Positions 1,771 through 17,255 of a stretch of 64,000 nucleotides of DNA are shown one piece after another; positions within the stretch are counted from its first letter, which is position 1, and every line of letters begins with the position of its first letter. A model generated the notes under the pieces. That model did not search any database. It saw only the letters and a list, made by a program, of their open reading frames with translations, and had not been told where the DNA came from. This stretch comes from Natrialba magadii ATCC 43099 (lineage in GTDB: Archaea; Halobacteriota; Halobacteria; Halobacteriales; Natrialbaceae): contig NC_013922.1 in NCBI RefSeq assembly GCF_000025625.1, forward strand, positions 372,001 through 436,000, given 5' to 3'. The position numbers and the translations under genes were made by a program.

Positions 1771-4700
1771 TTACTTTTGGAAGCTAATCTCGACTTTCAA
1801 ACTCGACGCCTCGTCGGGCATACGCTCGAACAAGTCCTGTACCTTGGTGTAATCCTGTTCGGAGCGGAGCGTCAAGCTCACTTGCGAACGTTCGATGTCG
1901 GCCGTCCCCTGAAGCGCGCCGGGTACACCCTCCCGGTCCGGGAGCATGAACGTGACGTCGCCGTACTCGACAGTCCCGGTCTGGTGGTCTCTTCGCCATT
2001 TTCTGCGCATGGCGGCGACGTCGTCGCCGTTGTACTCGAATCGCCACGTCTCTGAACCGACGTCGGGGATCCGGAACGGATAACCCGGCACCCAATCGGA
2101 CGACTTCTCGGACCCTGTGGGCCCGACGACGTACACTGGCTCCTCCTCACGGCCGAGGTTCTGCAGAAGGAATGTTTGTACCATGTCCTCCGTAACGGAG
2201 CTATCGAACCGATCGGTGACCTTGGTCACGGTGAACTGGTCACCGATATCAAGGTCGGTTAGATAGTCTATAATCTGTTTGCCGATACGGTCGGAGACTG
2301 TCGGAACGATCTTCACCGTCATCGGATTCCGGTCGCCGAGAGAGTCCAAATACCGCCCGCCAGCTTCTAGCACGTACTCGTCGATGAGGAATTCATTCAC
2401 TGCCTCGCGGGCTGCCGTCTCGGTTTCGTCCGGCGGGAGGAACACAGATTCGTCCGCGCGGATCTCGCCAATGATCGTTTCGAGGTTTGCGTACCCCTCT
2501 GCATCGATCGCCTCTTCAATACGCTCGGCGAGATACGACCCACCGACAGTCGTCGCACTCCCGACGTCCCGGAGTGTCCCATCCGACTGCGGCTTATCGA
2601 GAATCTCGTTGCCCCGAACGACCACGTATTGGTCCTCGCGGTTCAGCCGCCCGATAGCACGCATCACGACGTCGTGGCTGTCGCCGTCGAGCCAGATCTC
2701 GCCATCCTCGACCAGTTCCAACTCGAAGTCACCGATATCAAGCGCCGTCGTCCCGCTTCCGAACCGCTGGCGGAGTTGCTGTTCGACGTCGTCAACACCC
2801 CACACGTCCACGTCCTCCTTTCGGACCAAGACGGTGTCAAGCGAACTTCCGGAGGGGTCGTCACGGAAGCCGCCGGAGTCACGAGCTAACACTGGCTTCC
2901 CTTCGAGGGCTTCCACGGTTGCGTTCAACACGTCGTTCGCGCTTCCGGGAATCGGGAGTTCCGGATCACGGAGGAACTGCTCGTACACGTCCTCGATCGA
3001 GATCTCGCCGCGACGCTCCATCAGGTCCGACACGATGGGCCACACGTGAGACTGCAGGTCGAAGGGATCTGCCGCCGCGGAGTCCGCGATGTTCGAAGCA
3101 TCGAGTTCCGGTCCATCGGAGACATAGACATCGAGGTCCATCGGTGCTACGAGATCGAACTCTTGGAGCAGGTTGTCTCCGTCTAGAACCTCTCCATAGA
3201 GCAGCTGCAGTTCTTCACGGAGCTCGCTTACCTCCTGGTCTTTCATCGACTGAATTGACTCGCGGATCTCGTCATCGAGGGACTCATCGGCGAGGACCTG
3301 ACGGGCACCTTCGATGTACCGTGCTTTATCGATGTATCGAGTCCCCGATTCAATCGCCTTGTCGCCGGAGGGCTGCACGAACACGAGCGTGTTCCGCCAC
3401 TCACGCCCGCGGCTGTCGTTTGTGATTACGCGCTCAACCTCCTCCTGTGTCCATTGATCGTCCTTTACCACGACCTTGATGTCGCGGTCGTCCGGGACGT
3501 CCCGAATATCGTCAGTTCGGAAGCCAACGGGAGATGCGTTCGACCCGAAGATGTCGGTTATGAAGTCGGCGGTTTCGGCCTTCGCTGATCGCTCGGAGAC
3601 ATCGACTGCGGCGTTCCGAATGAGTGCGTTCGGGTTCTGACGATCCCGGATGGCGTATTTCCCGTTCAGCTTGTGGAGGTGCCAGGCGACGCCGTGTAGT
3701 CGCTCAAGGTTGAGCACGACATCGGAGACGAGGTCGCCCGTCTGGTACGCCCCCATCACGATCTCCGAGACCTCTGCGCCCTCTCCCTCGCTCGGCTTCA
3801 GTGAGTAGAGCAGGATGGTGTTGAGGATGCGGCGACCATGGGGGACATCGTCCTCATCCACCCGATTCTTGATGTCGCCGGTCGCAGCGTTCAGTCGTTC
3901 GTAGTTAATCTTGGAGAGTTCGCCCTCAAACTCGATCCCATCGATATCCCCGTGTGTGATCAGGTTTGTCTGGTCCTGCATTTCGAGGAGGACCTTCGAG
4001 AAGAGGTAGATCATCCCGCGCGTGTTCTGGTTCCCCTCGTCAGCGTAGTACCGCGTCTCAAGCGCATCAAGGAGGACAGGATGGAACGGGTAGAGGTCGT
4101 GCATCTCCGAGAGGAGGTCGTCAGGAATGGTGACGTGGTCCGACTGATCGTAGGCGTCGAAGTACCCGTTCACGATCTCACGAGCAGCTGATTCGTCAGT
4201 GTCCTCGATCAACCGGTGGTGGAGGACTTCGCGCTTGTCCACCTGGTTGTTCATGTTGACTTCGACCGCCTGTTCCCGGTTCAGAATATCGTGGACCTCG
4301 GAGCCCTCACGAAGAACAGAGACGATAGTGTAGAGCTCTAAATCGGACAGTGCTGTCGATTCGAGCAGCGATTGGAGGAAGGCCTTGTTCGCGCTCTTGC
4401 GGTCCCCTTGGAGCGTATCGAACCAGTCCTCAAGCTCGTCGACGAAGAACGCGACGGTGTCATCGCCGACGGCGTCCTGAATCGTCTGCATGTCCGGATA
4501 GCCGCCGGACTCGTACGTCCCGGGGTCGTAGTGGAGTGCCTCGAAGAACGGCTCCCAAAGGTACTCGTACTGTTCGTTCTGCATAGCGACCGTGATTGGG
4601 ACTGCAGACTCCGGAAGCGATGATTCGAACTCCTCAATTTCCTCGGTTGCCCACGAACCCGCAGCAACGGGATCATCGAAACAGTGGTACAGCGCCACCA

Positions 4701-4977
4701 TTTGGTGGGATTTCCCACTCCCATAGGGGCCATAGAGGATGTGCGTCCCCCGTGGGTCATCGCCAGTCAAGGAATCGCGGAGGATCGAGAGGGCCTCTCG
4801 GAGCCCCTGAGTCATCAGCGTCCGTTCGAAGAAGAGCTCCGCGTCGGACTCGAATTCGTTGTCGTCGTCGACGTTGTAGAGCTTTACTTGACCATCTATT
4901 TGTCCGTCTTCTCGAAGTTCACGGCTGAGGGTTACCGTGTCTTCGAGGGTATTTGATAAAGATCCGGTTTGTGCCAT
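1771..4977 (-). CDS. DUF499-like AAA+ P-loop ATPase
   Basis: 1068 residues from ATG at 4977 (MAQTGS); the longer start at 5016 would cover the promoter. Walker A GPYGSGKSH is at 83-91 and Walker B VAFFVDELED around 175-183. A later DLYPFHPVLLDALE segment followed by QNTRG is typical of COG1483/DUF499 ATPases, distant relatives of the BREX ATPase BrxC/PglY. The long C-terminal half shows no recognised domain. In known defence islands such ATPases accompany SNF2 helicases, PLD proteins and DUF1156-type methylases. Here helicase and PLD partners are adjacent, but no methylase is seen. The role is likely DNA-dependent ATP hydrolysis within an anti-phage complex (inference). Confidence 0.85.
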   Translation of the reverse strand: MAQTGSLSNTLEDTVTLSRELREDGQIDGQVKLYNVDDDNEFESDAELFFERTLMTQGLREALSILRDSLTGDDPRGTHILYGPYGSGKSHQMVALYHCFDDPVAAGSWATEEIEEFESSLPESAVPITVAMQNEQYEYLWEPFFEALHYDPGTYESGGYPDMQTIQDAVGDDTVAFFVDELEDWFDTLQGDRKSANKAFLQSLLESTALSDLELYTIVSVLREGSEVHDILNREQAVEVNMNNQVDKREVLHHRLIEDTDESAAREIVNGYFDAYDQSDHVTIPDDLLSEMHDLYPFHPVLLDALETRYYADEGNQNTRGMIYLFSKVLLEMQDQTNLITHGDIDGIEFEGELSKINYERLNAATGDIKNRVDEDDVPHGRRILNTILLYSLKPSEGEGAEVSEIVMGAYQTGDLVSDVVLNLERLHGVAWHLHKLNGKYAIRDRQNPNALIRNAAVDVSERSAKAETADFITDIFGSNASPVGFRTDDIRDVPDDRDIKVVVKDDQWTQEEVERVITNDSRGREWRNTLVFVQPSGDKAIESGTRYIDKARYIEGARQVLADESLDDEIRESIQSMKDQEVSELREELQLLYGEVLDGDNLLQEFDLVAPMDLDVYVSDGPELDASNIADSAAADPFDLQSHVWPIVSDLMERRGEISIEDVYEQFLRDPELPIPGSANDVLNATVEALEGKPVLARDSGGFRDDPSGSSLDTVLVRKEDVDVWGVDDVEQQLRQRFGSGTTALDIGDFELELVEDGEIWLDGDSHDVVMRAIGRLNREDQYVVVRGNEILDKPQSDGTLRDVGSATTVGGSYLAERIEEAIDAEGYANLETIIGEIRADESVFLPPDETETAAREAVNEFLIDEYVLEAGGRYLDSLGDRNPMTVKIVPTVSDRIGKQIIDYLTDLDIGDQFTVTKVTDRFDSSVTEDMVQTFLLQNLGREEEPVYVVGPTGSEKSSDWVPGYPFRIPDVGSETWRFEYNGDDVAAMRRKWRRDHQTGTVEYGDVTFMLPDREGVPGALQGTADIERSQVSLTLRSEQDYTKVQDLFERMPDEASSLKVEISFQK

Positions 4978-5120
4978 CTTGATACTTACCAGACTCCTTT
5001 GACACCCAATAAGCACTATGGTCCTGTGGGTTCAGTCTGCTTTGTGAGTACCATAAGATGTACTGATCAGCGTTTGTCGGTCACAAAACGTATTTCACGC
5101 ATACTTGTCTCTACGAAAGT
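4978..5120. promoter_or_regulatory. Divergent promoter region with GTACCAT motifs
   Basis: This 143-bp gap separates the ATPase (minus) and helicase (plus) genes. A TATA-like stretch at about 5008-5017 (minus, TGCTTATTGG) precedes the ATPase, and one at about 5085-5097 (plus, around CGTATTT) precedes the helicase. Between them lie GTACCATA at 5048-5055 and GTACTGAT at 5060-5067, spaced 12 bp. These match the core of the 13-bp array at 8113-8359, and the string AGATGTACTGA (5056-5066) recurs exactly near the start of that array. An operator shared with the array is a reasonable inference. Confidence 0.55.
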
Positions 5121-6875
5121 ATGAGAGGCTACGACCTCGTCGATGTTGAGGTCTCGCACGAGCCTGCGGACGATCTTCTCGACTCCCTATCTACCGACAC
5201 TACCGATGGGAATCATCTACAGAGTATCCAGGCCGTTCGTCTTCATGCGGGTCAGCCGGACTCTGAACTTCGGTCGTTGAAGGAGTTAGACGAGAACGCC
5301 GTTAAGCTACTCGAACATCAGGTGGATGCAGCCTACCGGGCTCTCTTCGAGATGGATGGGAAAGCCCTTCTCGCTGACGAGGTCGGACTTGGAAAGACCA
5401 TTGAGGTCGGGATGATCCTCAAGGAGATGCATTTTCGGGACACGGATGAGTCCGTGCTCGTTCTCACGCCTGCACAACTGGCGAAACAGTGGCAGGCTGA
5501 GCTCCGTGAGAAGTTCGGCCTCGACTTTATATGCAACTATGACGACGAGTTTGAGGATTTTGATGCGCACGACTACATCATTGCGAGCATCGACACTGCG
5601 AAGAGTGAACGACACCGACAGACGGTACTCGACCGCAGCTGGGACGTTTTAGTACTTGACGAGGCACACTACGTCAAGAACGAAGAGACAAACCGATACG
5701 ACCTGATCGACCGGCTCTCGTACAACTACGCGTTCTTCCTGACGGCAACACCAATCCAGAACGAACTGACGGACCTGTATAATGTCGTCTCACTGCTCCG
5801 CCCTGGTCTGTTCGGTACGCGCGATGTGTTCCATCAGTACTTCGTGAACAGCAACCAAGAGACGCTCGTCAATCGAGACGAATTGCAAGACCGGTTGAAC
5901 AAAGTGATGATTCGGAACCGACGGGAAGACACGGACATCGACTTCACAGATCGAACTATCGACACACGAACGTTTGATCCCACTCAAAAAGAGCGCGAAC
6001 TCTATCAGGCAGTCTCCGATTACGTCAAAGGTGCATACAGCCAAGACCAAGGGCAGAAGCTAGTGTTGATGCTCCTCCAGAAGGAGGTTGTCAGTAGTCC
6101 TGTAGCGCTTAAGGAAACAATCGAGAAACGACTCTATGAACAGTCCGAACTCACCCACGCGGACGAACTGGAATCGATTCTTGATCTGATCGAAGATATT
6201 GATACGGTAACGAAACAGGAGCGTCTCCTGGACATCGTTGAAGAGGCCCGCGACAATGTCGAGATGGGGCGCGTGATCGTCTTCACGCAGTTCCGAGCGA
6301 CCCAACGACAGGTTCTCGACCGACTTGCCTCGGAAGGGTATACAGTACACGCGTTCCATGGCGGGCACTCCAGTAGTGAGAAGGAGAAGATCGTGAAGAA
6401 CTTCGAGGAGGAAGGAGGAATCCTTGTTTCAACCGATGCGATGAGCGAAGGCCGTAATCTTCAGTTCTGTAATTTGCTAGTGAACATGGATTTGCCGTGG
6501 AATCCGATGCGCGTCGAACAGCGGATCGGGCGTGTCCACCGTATCGGGCAGAAGCGGGATGTCTTCATATTCAATATGGCGCTAAAGGATACTGTTGAAG
6601 AATACGTGTTGGAGCGCCTCTACCACAAAATCGACCTGTTCCAACAGAGTGTAGGAGAACTGAGTTCAATCCTGAGTCGATTAGAAGAGTCCGGAACGAG
6701 CTTCGAAGACCAGATTTTCGAGCGGCTGGTTAATGCTGATTCAGAAGTCGATCTGGAGAACGATTTTGATGCGATGGCCGTCGATCTACAAGAACAACGC
6801 GAACTTGCTGACAAACTAGAGGAGTTCAACAGCGGTGTTTTCGAAGGCTTTGACCTGGGTGAAAGCGATGACTGA
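5121..6875 (+). CDS. SNF2/HepA-type superfamily 2 helicase
   Basis: 584 residues starting at ATG 5121, with a TATA-like element about 30 bp upstream. Motif I DEVGLGKT lies at 86-93, motif Ia LTPAQLAKQW near 115, DEAH at 180-183, and motif III LTATPIQN at 207-214. The C-terminal RecA lobe contains VFTQFRATQ, STDAMSEGRNLQ and QRIGRVHRIGQ (motifs IV-VI). This is an ATP-dependent DNA translocase of COG0553. It lacks the long C-terminal region of full-length HepA/DrmD-like proteins; the next gene, overlapping by 8 bp, seems to supply it. Likely role: DNA translocation or remodelling in the defence-like module (inference). Confidence 0.93.
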   Translation: MRGYDLVDVEVSHEPADDLLDSLSTDTTDGNHLQSIQAVRLHAGQPDSELRSLKELDENAVKLLEHQVDAAYRALFEMDGKALLADEVGLGKTIEVGMILKEMHFRDTDESVLVLTPAQLAKQWQAELREKFGLDFICNYDDEFEDFDAHDYIIASIDTAKSERHRQTVLDRSWDVLVLDEAHYVKNEETNRYDLIDRLSYNYAFFLTATPIQNELTDLYNVVSLLRPGLFGTRDVFHQYFVNSNQETLVNRDELQDRLNKVMIRNRREDTDIDFTDRTIDTRTFDPTQKERELYQAVSDYVKGAYSQDQGQKLVLMLLQKEVVSSPVALKETIEKRLYEQSELTHADELESILDLIEDIDTVTKQERLLDIVEEARDNVEMGRVIVFTQFRATQRQVLDRLASEGYTVHAFHGGHSSSEKEKIVKNFEEEGGILVSTDAMSEGRNLQFCNLLVNMDLPWNPMRVEQRIGRVHRIGQKRDVFIFNMALKDTVEEYVLERLYHKIDLFQQSVGELSSILSRLEESGTSFEDQIFERLVNADSEVDLENDFDAMAVDLQEQRELADKLEEFNSGVFEGFDLGESDD

Positions 6876-8034
6876 TGCAGCCCTCGCGGTCACGCAGTCT
6901 GCAGTCGAGGAATTTACCGAACGCTATTTAGAGTCGCTTGGCGGCACCATCGATAAACAAGGGGACAAGTGGGAGGCTACCATCCCCGATAATGAGGACA
7001 CGGAATTACCAGCCGGGAGGATGTCATTACTCACTGGCGACGACACCAATGAGGGGGCTACTGGAAATCCTCTTCATCCGGAGAGTGAGTTTTTCCAGCG
7101 AATTCTCAGAGAAGCGAGTGAACGTCGTCCCACGGGAAAGTTGACCATAGAAGCCGACCAGGCCAAAGTAGAGCTACCACAATGGGTGGAGGGAAGCGAC
7201 GTCGAAGTGAGAGAAACACAATTCACTCCGTATTACGACCGAGCGGCGATTGTGGTACTCTTCGAGGTGAGTATCGAGACTGTCAGTGAGTACCAACAAG
7301 AGTTCCTTCGGGCCATTGCCATAGATGGCCGCTCGGAACAGAGACTTCCAGAGTTGGAAGAGACGTTTCTTCGAATGACGTCTATTACCACGGAAACGGA
7401 ATCCACTGCCTCTCAATCGGCGTTTTCGGAAGCAGACGTACCTTCACTTCTCGACGTTGCCCAGAATCAGCTAATGGCGAAAGTGCAGACCGAAATTGAC
7501 GAAGTTCACAGAGAGGCATCCAGAGCTGCAGACGCAGAGGTCGAAGAGTACCGCCAGCTGCAACAACAACGGATCCAAGAGCTGGAAGAAGAATGTTCGA
7601 AGCTATCCTCAAAGATCGACGAACTAAGTGAAGCGATCAACGGTAGTGACCAAGATGACCGCGTAGAGGCACTTAAGGAGAGGAAAAAGGTGAAAGCAGA
7701 GTACGAGAAGGTTGATTCGGAGTTAAGTGACCTCCACAAGCAGCGAGATCAGGGATATCCTCAGAAGCAGGAAGAAATCCGTAAACGGCATGCGTTAGAC
7801 GTTCGAGTAACCCCTCTCACGGTAACACAGGTAGAGTACGAACGAGGAGAGATGGATATCGAATTAGCTGAGGAAGGAACGACTCAGACAGTCACTATTG
7901 GATATGGAAGCGGTATCGGACCCATGGAAAACGTTCGATGTTCGTCTTGTGATCAAGAACTTACTGCAGAAAACTCTCTACAGACTATCAAAGGCTCACT
8001 TCAGTGTAGAAGATGTACTTCGCCTAATCCTTAA
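6868..8034 (+). CDS. Coiled-coil zinc-ribbon partner of the SNF2 helicase
   Basis: 388 residues. The ATG at 6868 overlaps the helicase stop by 8 bp, so the pair should be translationally coupled. The N-terminal part has an ESLGG...W.A.IP pattern and then NPLHPESEFFQRIL, which recall the region after the helicase core in long HepA/DrmD-like proteins. A charged coiled coil fills about residues 205-315. C358/C361 and C380/C383 form a C-terminal zinc ribbon. It is best read as the split-off C-terminal half of a HepA-like protein. The alternative is an independent partner that merely resembles it. Confidence 0.8.
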   Translation: MTDAALAVTQSAVEEFTERYLESLGGTIDKQGDKWEATIPDNEDTELPAGRMSLLTGDDTNEGATGNPLHPESEFFQRILREASERRPTGKLTIEADQAKVELPQWVEGSDVEVRETQFTPYYDRAAIVVLFEVSIETVSEYQQEFLRAIAIDGRSEQRLPELEETFLRMTSITTETESTASQSAFSEADVPSLLDVAQNQLMAKVQTEIDEVHREASRAADAEVEEYRQLQQQRIQELEEECSKLSSKIDELSEAINGSDQDDRVEALKERKKVKAEYEKVDSELSDLHKQRDQGYPQKQEEIRKRHALDVRVTPLTVTQVEYERGEMDIELAEEGTTQTVTIGYGSGIGPMENVRCSSCDQELTAENSLQTIKGSLQCRRCTSPNP

Positions 8035-8112: not shown

Positions 8113-8359
8113 GTGGCTGTGAGATGTACTGAGTTGGTGTGCCATGTGGTTAGAACAAGTATCGAAGCCATGGCATCGTTCCTTGGTACAGTTCCAAGAT
8201 AGTGTACCAAGACTCTGTACTGTGTAACGGTACTCCGTCACTGTACCATGAACCGGTACTATAATTCTGTACCATGCTTGTGTACCATGAGATAGTAACA
8301 GGACTCTGAACCGAGACTGTGTTCCATGCCGTCGCGTCAAGGTACTGTACCGCGGTTTC
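8113..8359. repeat. Tandem array of about nineteen 13-bp repeats (GTACCATG core)
   Basis: Units start every 13 bases at 8113, 8126, 8139 and so on to 8347. The first eight positions follow GTACCATG. Exact copies are at 8243, 8269 and 8282. Copies with seven of eight matches are at 8139, 8204 and 8321. Most of the others match four to six positions, but the first (8113) matches only three. Positions 9-13 are loose, often ACTCT or ending in T. The phase never slips across 247 bp. Because 13 is not a multiple of 3, the conserved bases fall in all reading frames, so selection is on DNA or RNA rather than protein. It begins 79 bp after the last gene of the defence-like module. Confidence 0.85.
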
Positions 8360-9293: not shown

Positions 9294-9929
9294 CTAATGC
9301 ATGACGTATGGGTAGAGCGAATCTGCCGGCCACTCACCGTTACCATCCTCAATCCATTTCAGGTAATCTCGGTAGGGATATACGTGGTATTTGTTATATT
9401 CCTCTGGCGGAATCCTGTCCAGATGCTCGTTCAACTTCTCATATCGATCGTACTTTTCCTGGTGGCAGAGGGCGCTGTAGGACCCGTACGCGGAAACCTG
9501 CACGTCTTCTATCCGGATGCGGCAGATGATGGCCGCTCCTCCGCGATCTAAGAAAGAGGTACCGAAGTGATTACTGTGGGGCCAGAGAAACACGCATCCG
9601 TAGCGTACGGATCCGGGTACGTGGTAGAGGTCGCTATGAACGTGCTCCAAGGGGTCGCCGAACCCATCCTTCAGGATCGACTCGGCTCGGTTGGGCTTGG
9701 TCTGGTGTACCAGCACTGCCTCGCCTAGTTCCACCTCTACCTCGCTTGCCTCCCTCGCTACCAGCTTTCTGGCGTCGTCGTTGTGCGATTGTGCCTCCAC
9801 CCATTCGACTGGCTGGACGTGACTGGGGTCAGCCATTGCTTCGACAGGGCCGTTCTCGGCACAGACCTCCGCGAGTCGCCTTAGGTTGTCGTCAGTGTTG
9901 CGGATTTGTTCGAGTTTCGAGTGTTCCAT
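9294..9929 (-). CDS. Possible ADP-ribosyltransferase-fold protein
   Basis: 211 residues from ATG at 9929. The segment VLVHQTKPNRAESILKDGF (about 72-90, H75) resembles the H..T....A..I...G motif that opens ADP-ribosyltransferase and DarT-like folds. It is followed by GCVFLWPHSN, where such folds have an aromatic second motif, and by a CRIRIEDVQV strand. The N-terminal 70 residues are helical and unassigned. No antitoxin-like neighbour is seen. If the fold is right it could be a toxin or defence effector of the island; the assignment rests on motif resemblance only. The third catalytic residue is not identifiable by eye. Confidence 0.5.
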   Translation of the reverse strand: MEHSKLEQIRNTDDNLRRLAEVCAENGPVEAMADPSHVQPVEWVEAQSHNDDARKLVAREASEVEVELGEAVLVHQTKPNRAESILKDGFGDPLEHVHSDLYHVPGSVRYGCVFLWPHSNHFGTSFLDRGGAAIICRIRIEDVQVSAYGSYSALCHQEKYDRYEKLNEHLDRIPPEEYNKYHVYPYRDYLKWIEDGNGEWPADSLYPYVMH

Positions 9930-10384
9930 CGGCCGTTAGTTCCGATTTGCGTTAACCGTCTCTCCCTCCTGGCCTCCTGGCTGGTTATGCTCTTGACCTG
10001 CACGCCGGTTCCAGGGTGGTCGCTACTACGGACGAACGGAGCGACTGGAGGATTGCGATGCACAGACCCAGAATAGTAGTCATATTTCGACGTAACCCAC
10101 TCTACTCACTTAAAGCTATAAGGAAATAAAACAGTCTAACTGACCAACTATCTCCGTATATGGCAACCGAAGGATCGATTGATTAGCAGTGTGTGAGTCG
10201 TTCTCATTGCATGTGAATTTAAGTGCTCCTTCAACCTAATGCGCAGACGTGCCTGGGGTGCGGGACAGAATCGCTATGTTCGTTAACGAATTCAAAATCG
10301 GCCTCCGCTCAATGAGAGCGAAAAATACCGATTCAGTAGGCTCAGGATGCGAATCCCGGTCCTTCAAGATCGCGTGCGAGAAAA
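9930..10384. other. Gene-less stretch between island and tRNA-Val
   Basis: No convincing gene is seen. The part from about 10080 to 10170 is AT-rich with several TATA-like strings. The frame starting near 10276 runs into the tRNA gene and is not coding. No copy of the tRNA 3' end was found here by eye, so no attachment-site duplication can be claimed. Confidence 0.5.
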
Positions 10385-10459
10385 TGGGTTGGGGCAGATT
10401 TGAACTGCCGACTTCCTCCGTGTGAAGGAGGTATCATAACCGGACTAGATCACCAACCC
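10385..10459 (-). tRNA. tRNA-Val (anticodon CAC)
   Basis: The minus strand folds as a tRNA. Acceptor GGGTTGG pairs with CCAACCC, the anticodon stem CCTCC/GGAGG encloses loop TTCACAC (CAC anticodon), and the T-arm contains GTTCAAATC. The discriminator is A, CCA is not encoded, and TTTT follows directly (10381-10384) as a likely terminator. The 3' end points toward the accessory island, the usual orientation for integration at a tRNA gene. Confidence 0.93.
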
Positions 10460-17166: not shown

Positions 17167-17255
17167 TCACTGCGTGATTGTACTGGGTGATTGTACTGCT
17201 GGTACTGGTCGCTGGTACTGATCGCTGGTACTGGAATGGTACTGTACTGGTATCC
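17167..17255. repeat. GTACTG tandem repeat upstream of gcvPA
   Basis: GTACTG occurs at 17180, 17193, 17202, 17215, 17228 and 17244, and GTACT at 17239. Three of the gaps are exactly 13 bp. Adjacent units GTACTGGTCGCTG and GTACTGATCGCTG differ at one base. The block fills the region just before the gcvPA start and shares the GTAC core and 13-bp step with the array at 8113-8359. It may be an operator cluster or a simple slippage product. Confidence 0.7.

Follow-up and report, generated by a model that had tools for sequence, protein, structure and literature searches.

A centromere-like array of 13-bp dyad units in an integrated, defence-carrying element of Natrialba magadii

The stretch of Natrialba magadii DNA analysed here (64,000 nucleotides from C1, a contig in a 4.4-Mb genome; hereafter ‘the window’) carries a real 13-bp repeat array at positions 8126–8359 of the forward strand, in which 18 units (GTACCRYGRTACW), each comprising a 12-bp dyad plus one basepair, follow one another at a 13-bp pitch. 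We consider it an even proposition that this is a centromere-class (SegB-like, parS-like) iterated binding array that is orphaned from any ParA. The original prediction had named an iteron-like protein-binding array among its possibilities, and comparisons of sequence argue for that part of it.

The array and its repeat unit

Set in 13-base rows, positions 8113–8359 hold their register throughout, with no insertions or deletions. Identity within the array is 0.50, 0.48 and 0.48 at lags of 13, 26 and 39 bp, as compared to approximately 0.2–0.3 at other lags, and the mean over those three lags (0.488) was equalled by none of 2000 dinucleotide-preserving shuffles (0.250 ± 0.017; z = 14). The original prediction described about nineteen units in exact 13-bp register over 247 bp; the register stands, but the first of those units (at 8113) drops out, leaving 18. 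Its count of 16 out of 19 units matching at least four of eight core positions was too low, since the rows give 18 of 19 against GTACCATG. The checks it proposed gave a divided answer, in that lag identity is strong (z = 14) but Tandem Repeats Finder detects just a fragment of the array (8215–8246), because the units are degenerate. The objection that 13-bp periodicity might be common in this genome did not hold: the best 117-bp stretch of the array scores 0.58, against a background of 0.267 ± 0.027 and a maximum of 0.447 over a 400-kb sample of this genome. The top three 13-bp signals in the surrounding 101 kb are the window array and two further arrays of its unit.

The five best-kept units occupy positions 8230–8292 (forward strand; profile R1, 49.1 bits, E 1.1e-13), and the consensus GTACCRYGRTACW is identical in the window array and in 117 units pooled from other genomes. 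The unit is dyad-symmetric (r = 0.74, permutation p = 0.04), corresponding to a 12-bp palindrome, GTACCRYGGTAC, that is repeated every 13 bp. The alternation of GGTAC and GTACC that had been pointed out earlier is borne out, and arises because each unit is that dyad followed by one base.

The host element and related arrays

The G+C content drops from approximately 0.63 to approximately 0.50 over C1:339k–382k. A tRNA-Val(CAC) gene (window 10385–10459, reverse strand) is the integration site and right end of a 43.7-kb element, and a 27-bp att repeat (AAAATGGGTTGGGGCAGATTTGAACTG; 10381–10407) has an identical copy at C1:338663 that marks the left element end. That distal repeat is a copy of the tRNA-Val 3′ end, and a tyrosine integrase gene starts there, which together place the window array within an integrated element, 2.0 kb from its tRNA end. 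In addition to the integrase, the element encodes an Orc1/Cdc6 protein (a TIGR02928 match at 269.7 bits, where the cut-off is 181), an AbrB/MazE-like protein, serine recombinases, McrBC and a defence module composed of DUF1156, zinc-ribbon, PLD, DUF499 and SNF2 proteins. Within the window, the genes of that module encode the zinc-ribbon protein (PDC-M14A; 121–603, reverse), the PLD-type protein (PDC-S05; 576–1607, reverse), the DUF499 ATPase (1771–5016, reverse) and the DrmD/BrxH-like SNF2 helicase (5121–6875, forward). A 399-aa gene (6835–8034, forward) is the last before the array, which begins 92 bp past its stop codon, and a 211-aa gene (9294–9929, reverse), whose product has no match in Pfam or PADLOC, converges on the array from the other side, so that the array lies between convergent genes.

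A weight matrix built from the window array located five more arrays in this element, all of them shorter, at C1:353.8k, 355.3k, 360.0k, 361.9k and 364.1k. At C1:353.8–355.8k, an array and approximately 430 bp of downstream DNA are duplicated in tandem, with 73% identity. Elsewhere in the window, at 17169–17252, Tandem Repeats Finder reports a further short series of repeats, 13 bp and 11 bp long, with GGTACTGG units (a weak profile match, E 0.03). The same genome also contains a second, small remnant bounded by tRNA-Glu (C1:458994–464400), with a weak array approximately 0.3 kb from its end.

Pattern and profile searches found the unit GTACCRYGRTACW in 12 of 125 Natrialbaceae genomes, the weakest being G046 and G103 (E near 0.002), and it persists across several genera; the original prediction would have been undermined by absence of the array at other loci, and that absence was not seen. 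The array-bearing regions are R071 (L046 and its neighbours), R094 (L047/L247/L048), R056 (the L049 region, Natrinema hispanicum), R064 (L050), R067 (L051), R110 (L052), R015 (L053), R066 (L248), R109 (L249), R103 (L250), R046 (L251) and R000b (L054, the remnant in the window's own genome), beside the present element. Most occurrences of the unit are in elements with a tRNA-Val, tRNA-Lys or tRNA-Glu boundary: a full gene for one of these tRNAs and/or an integration-derived 3′ fragment is present in nine of the 13 array-bearing regions, and in six of those nine the tRNA end lies 0.3–2.6 kb from an array. Four of the tRNA-bounded, array-bearing elements encode Orc1/Cdc6. Matches to the pattern in other haloarchaeal families were all chance or coding repeats, and a BLAST search of the window array against plasmids and phages gave zero matches. 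An exact four-unit pattern searched against genome contigs and viral contigs returned, among the matches listed, mostly simple exact repeats from unrelated bacteria; the true arrays among them were in two Natrialbaceae records only, Haloterrigena sp. H1 and Natrinema hispanicum.

Arrays of the same pitch at haloarchaeal parA genes

One weak match, L055 (in G076), was rejected as a member of the GTACC family since its unit is different and lies directly upstream of a ParA gene, and that location led to the testing of haloarchaeal ParA upstream regions. Comparing lags of 7–22 bp for 56 ParA genes (47 non-redundant) from several families and ParA clades, we found 13 bp to be the best lag upstream of 46 of the 47, as opposed to 4 of 318 control gene upstream regions taken from the window's genome. 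These arrays sit directly upstream of parA (for example at loci L255–L261 and L293–L312), and their motif varies by ParA clade, indicating that the pitch is kept even as the sequence changes. Clade 1, the largest group, comprises 31 loci with consensus GTAACAGATATCT and a dyad symmetry of r = 0.96. Each of two complete plasmids has a single 13-bp-pitch array over threshold, the one linked to parA. The literature that we searched yielded no report of 13-bp repeats, a 13-bp pitch at parA, or par sites in haloarchaea; what archaeal plasmid and chromosome centromeres look like is a listed open question (PMC5120986).

A small partner gene follows parA on its 3′ side, usually with a 4-bp overlap; its product starts with a KxGxGxxxF-type N-terminus and continues through an acidic linker into a C-terminal domain that is conserved. 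The pattern of that domain looks like a ribbon-helix-helix, a reading drawn from sequence only because the partner proteins gave no convincing match to Pfam, NCBIfam or the PDB, and none to a solved SegB. In several records the partner gene is annotated as an acyl-CoA dehydrogenase, which is probably wrong. Sulfolobus SegB, itself a ribbon-helix-helix protein, binds a 13-bp palindrome, TCTAGASTCTAGA (PMC12284271).

The GTACC arrays share their 13-bp pitch and dyad-symmetric unit with these putative haloarchaeal partition-site arrays. The closest likeness is to the clade-1 loci (such as those of Halobacterium salinarum plasmid PHS3, whose partner protein is WP_010904098, and of Natrinema plasmids), which have the same pitch, dyad units and a degenerate, intergenic, tandem array. 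The clade-1 GTAACAGATATCT and the window GTACCRYGRTACW share GTA-CA-----CT in one register while the right half of the unit differs, and the GTACC profile is nearest to that of clade 1 at r 0.5–0.65, a marginal likeness only just beyond chance as judged from a column-permuted null (95% at 0.54, 99% at 0.61). The arrangement differs as well, in that the clade-1 array lies directly upstream of parA and is single in each of the two plasmids tested, whereas the present element contains six arrays and no parA. No homologue of ParA or of its partner was found in any array-bearing region examined (20–60 kb each), nor was a GTACC array found beside the ParA/partner pairs of the same genomes, which sit on other replicons. 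We therefore describe the GTACC arrays as centromere-like and orphan, and not as a partition locus.

Bacterial plasmid centromeres of the ParR/omega type consist of tandem short iterons that are bound cooperatively by ribbon-helix-helix proteins. They are alike in their tandem short repeats but differ from the present arrays in pitch, motif and host, and their repeats adjoin the partition operon. The SegAB system of Sulfolobales, which pairs a ParA-type protein with its partner, is alike in its class of site, a 13-bp palindrome, and in having sites that are also distant from the operon, although the SegB sites are described as scattered and the window array is a long tandem (PMC12284271).

We infer both that the GTACC arrays have a binder of the same type as the parA arrays and that they function in partition. 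In the arrangement that we envisage, each 12-bp dyad would hold a dimer of a small DNA-binding protein, most likely of the SegB-like ribbon-helix-helix kind, and dimers on neighbouring dyads, spaced exactly 13 bp apart, would pack into a filament. The array would belong to a family of tRNA-integrating, plasmid-like Natrialbaceae elements, and might be of use to the element in its free state or provide a tether through a partition protein acting in trans. A more specific version, possible but on the unlikely side, is that the elements carry several free-standing centromere-type arrays without partition genes, to be recognised in trans by a partition protein of the host or of a plasmid; defence islands would then hitch-hike on, or interfere with, the machinery of replicon segregation.

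Competing explanations and signs of decay

The main rival to the centromere reading, although we regard it as unlikely, is that the arrays form a recombination platform at which gene cassettes enter and leave islands through serine or tyrosine recombinases that the elements encode. Homology between islands breaks within or at the edge of arrays: the array of R067 has an insert of approximately 0.5 kb between ATAC motifs where that of R110 is uninterrupted, the ATPase gene of R056 is cut at GGATA and joined to array-like units, and R066 and R103 retain partial arrays. Arrays also lie on both sides of the defence module (genome 364.1k and 380.1k), and several of the elements encode serine recombinases. 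These breaks support recombination at the arrays, or simply reflect exchange between repeats, which promote ordinary recombination too in mobile islands that are mosaic anyway. The breakpoints are moreover few and vary in their position within the unit, the array-bearing elements do not all have one recombinase family in common, and the arrays, with up to 18 tandem dyads, do not resemble known core or res sites. The insert in R067 (L051 9392–9919, compared with L052 10027–10038) lies at an ATAC motif and contains a 151-aa open reading frame.

A regulatory array, bound cooperatively by a transcription factor of the host or the element that silences or insulates the AT-richer island, is a rather improbable explanation. 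MetJ boxes are cooperative operators made of tandem dyad units, which the present units resemble; some arrays lie 170–500 bp upstream of genes (for McrB and an ATPase), and a constant motif amid varying gene content would suit a host-encoded binder. However, the window array, the arrays beside Orc1/Cdc6 (this element and R071) and those beside a helicase/zinc-ribbon pair (R015 and R103) are located between convergent gene ends and not at promoters, and occurrence of the unit in so few of the 125 genomes indicates that it does not define a core regulon.

Two narrower proposals of the original prediction, which tied the array to the defence module, lost ground. An operator of the module is disfavoured by the position of the array, between convergent genes and 92 bp past the stop of the 399-aa gene, where it adjoins no promoter, and by a homologous module in R094 that has no array at the matching position. 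Arrays elsewhere are independent of the module, and they occur in elements that lack it and beside unrelated genes, which argues against a recognition or titration site for the module's proteins. The DUF1156/McrBC/DUF499 module was likewise rejected as the common partner of the arrays, being missing from most array-bearing elements. A CRISPR array, which would have near-identical repeats of 20–50 bp separated by unique spacers, was also discarded, as the units are 13 bp long and degenerate and no cas family was found among the module proteins scanned.

It is improbable that we are viewing non-functional relics, namely fragments of plasmid centromeres left by integrated and decaying plasmids. 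Truncated arrays in R066 and R103 and the lack of nearby partition genes fit such an origin, as do substitution rates in close pairs of arrays, where the core changes as often as the spacer (R064/R056, 0.04 versus 0.06; R067/R110, 0.10 versus 0.11; R015/R103, 0.24 versus 0.06). Deeper pairs, in contrast, keep the core better (R094/R110, 0.23 versus 0.36; window/R071, 0.29 versus 0.41), as would follow if the arrays were functional during the mobile state, and the motif persists in several genera. The pooled test for core constraint gave p = 0.11, and with the core evolving no more slowly than the spacer in close pairs, the resident copies may be decaying, and possibly are relics already. In L250 (G103), at approximately 9940–10050 (C4:14640–14740), several G:C to A:T changes at GTAC and CpG are seen relative to L053, as if that copy were decaying.

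It is very improbable that the arrays are replication-origin iterons (ORBs) for the element's Orc1/Cdc6. Haloarchaeal ORBs are similarly repeats in elements that carry Orc1/Cdc6, and in both this element and R071 the distance from cdc6 to an array is 0.7–0.8 kb; but the arrays have no G-string, have a short 13-bp pitch and are downstream of cdc6, while candidate G-string ORBs (GAGGGGTGGGGG repeats) are found upstream of this element's cdc6 at genome 357.3–357.5k, and many arrays have no cdc6 near them. ORBs are tied to their own cdc6 (PMC4441112), whereas the array motif is constant between this element and R071 even though their Orc1 proteins are only approximately 22% identical; for that reason, and given the separate G-string candidates, Orc1/Cdc6 was rejected as the array binder. 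The sequence upstream of cdc6 (C1:357329–357514; L011 7330–7514) comprises two 69-bp direct repeats with inverted G-strings (CACCCCCTC ... GAGGGGTGGGGG), and is a likely origin.

A source of structured RNA, which the original prediction had also raised, is extremely improbable: the units are self-complementary, but folding tests on four arrays, of which that of the window was folded on both strands, gave z-scores of −0.8, −0.9, −0.2, −2.4 and +1.1, so that the fold was no better than that of shuffles in four of five cases, and Rfam gave no matches.

A 13-bp-pitch array upstream of parA thus offers a testable signature of haloarchaeal centromeres that is largely independent of sequence and can be used to find them. 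With the window array, the signature reaches integrated elements that carry defence genes but no partition genes; if binding were shown, the array would link mobile defence islands to segregation.
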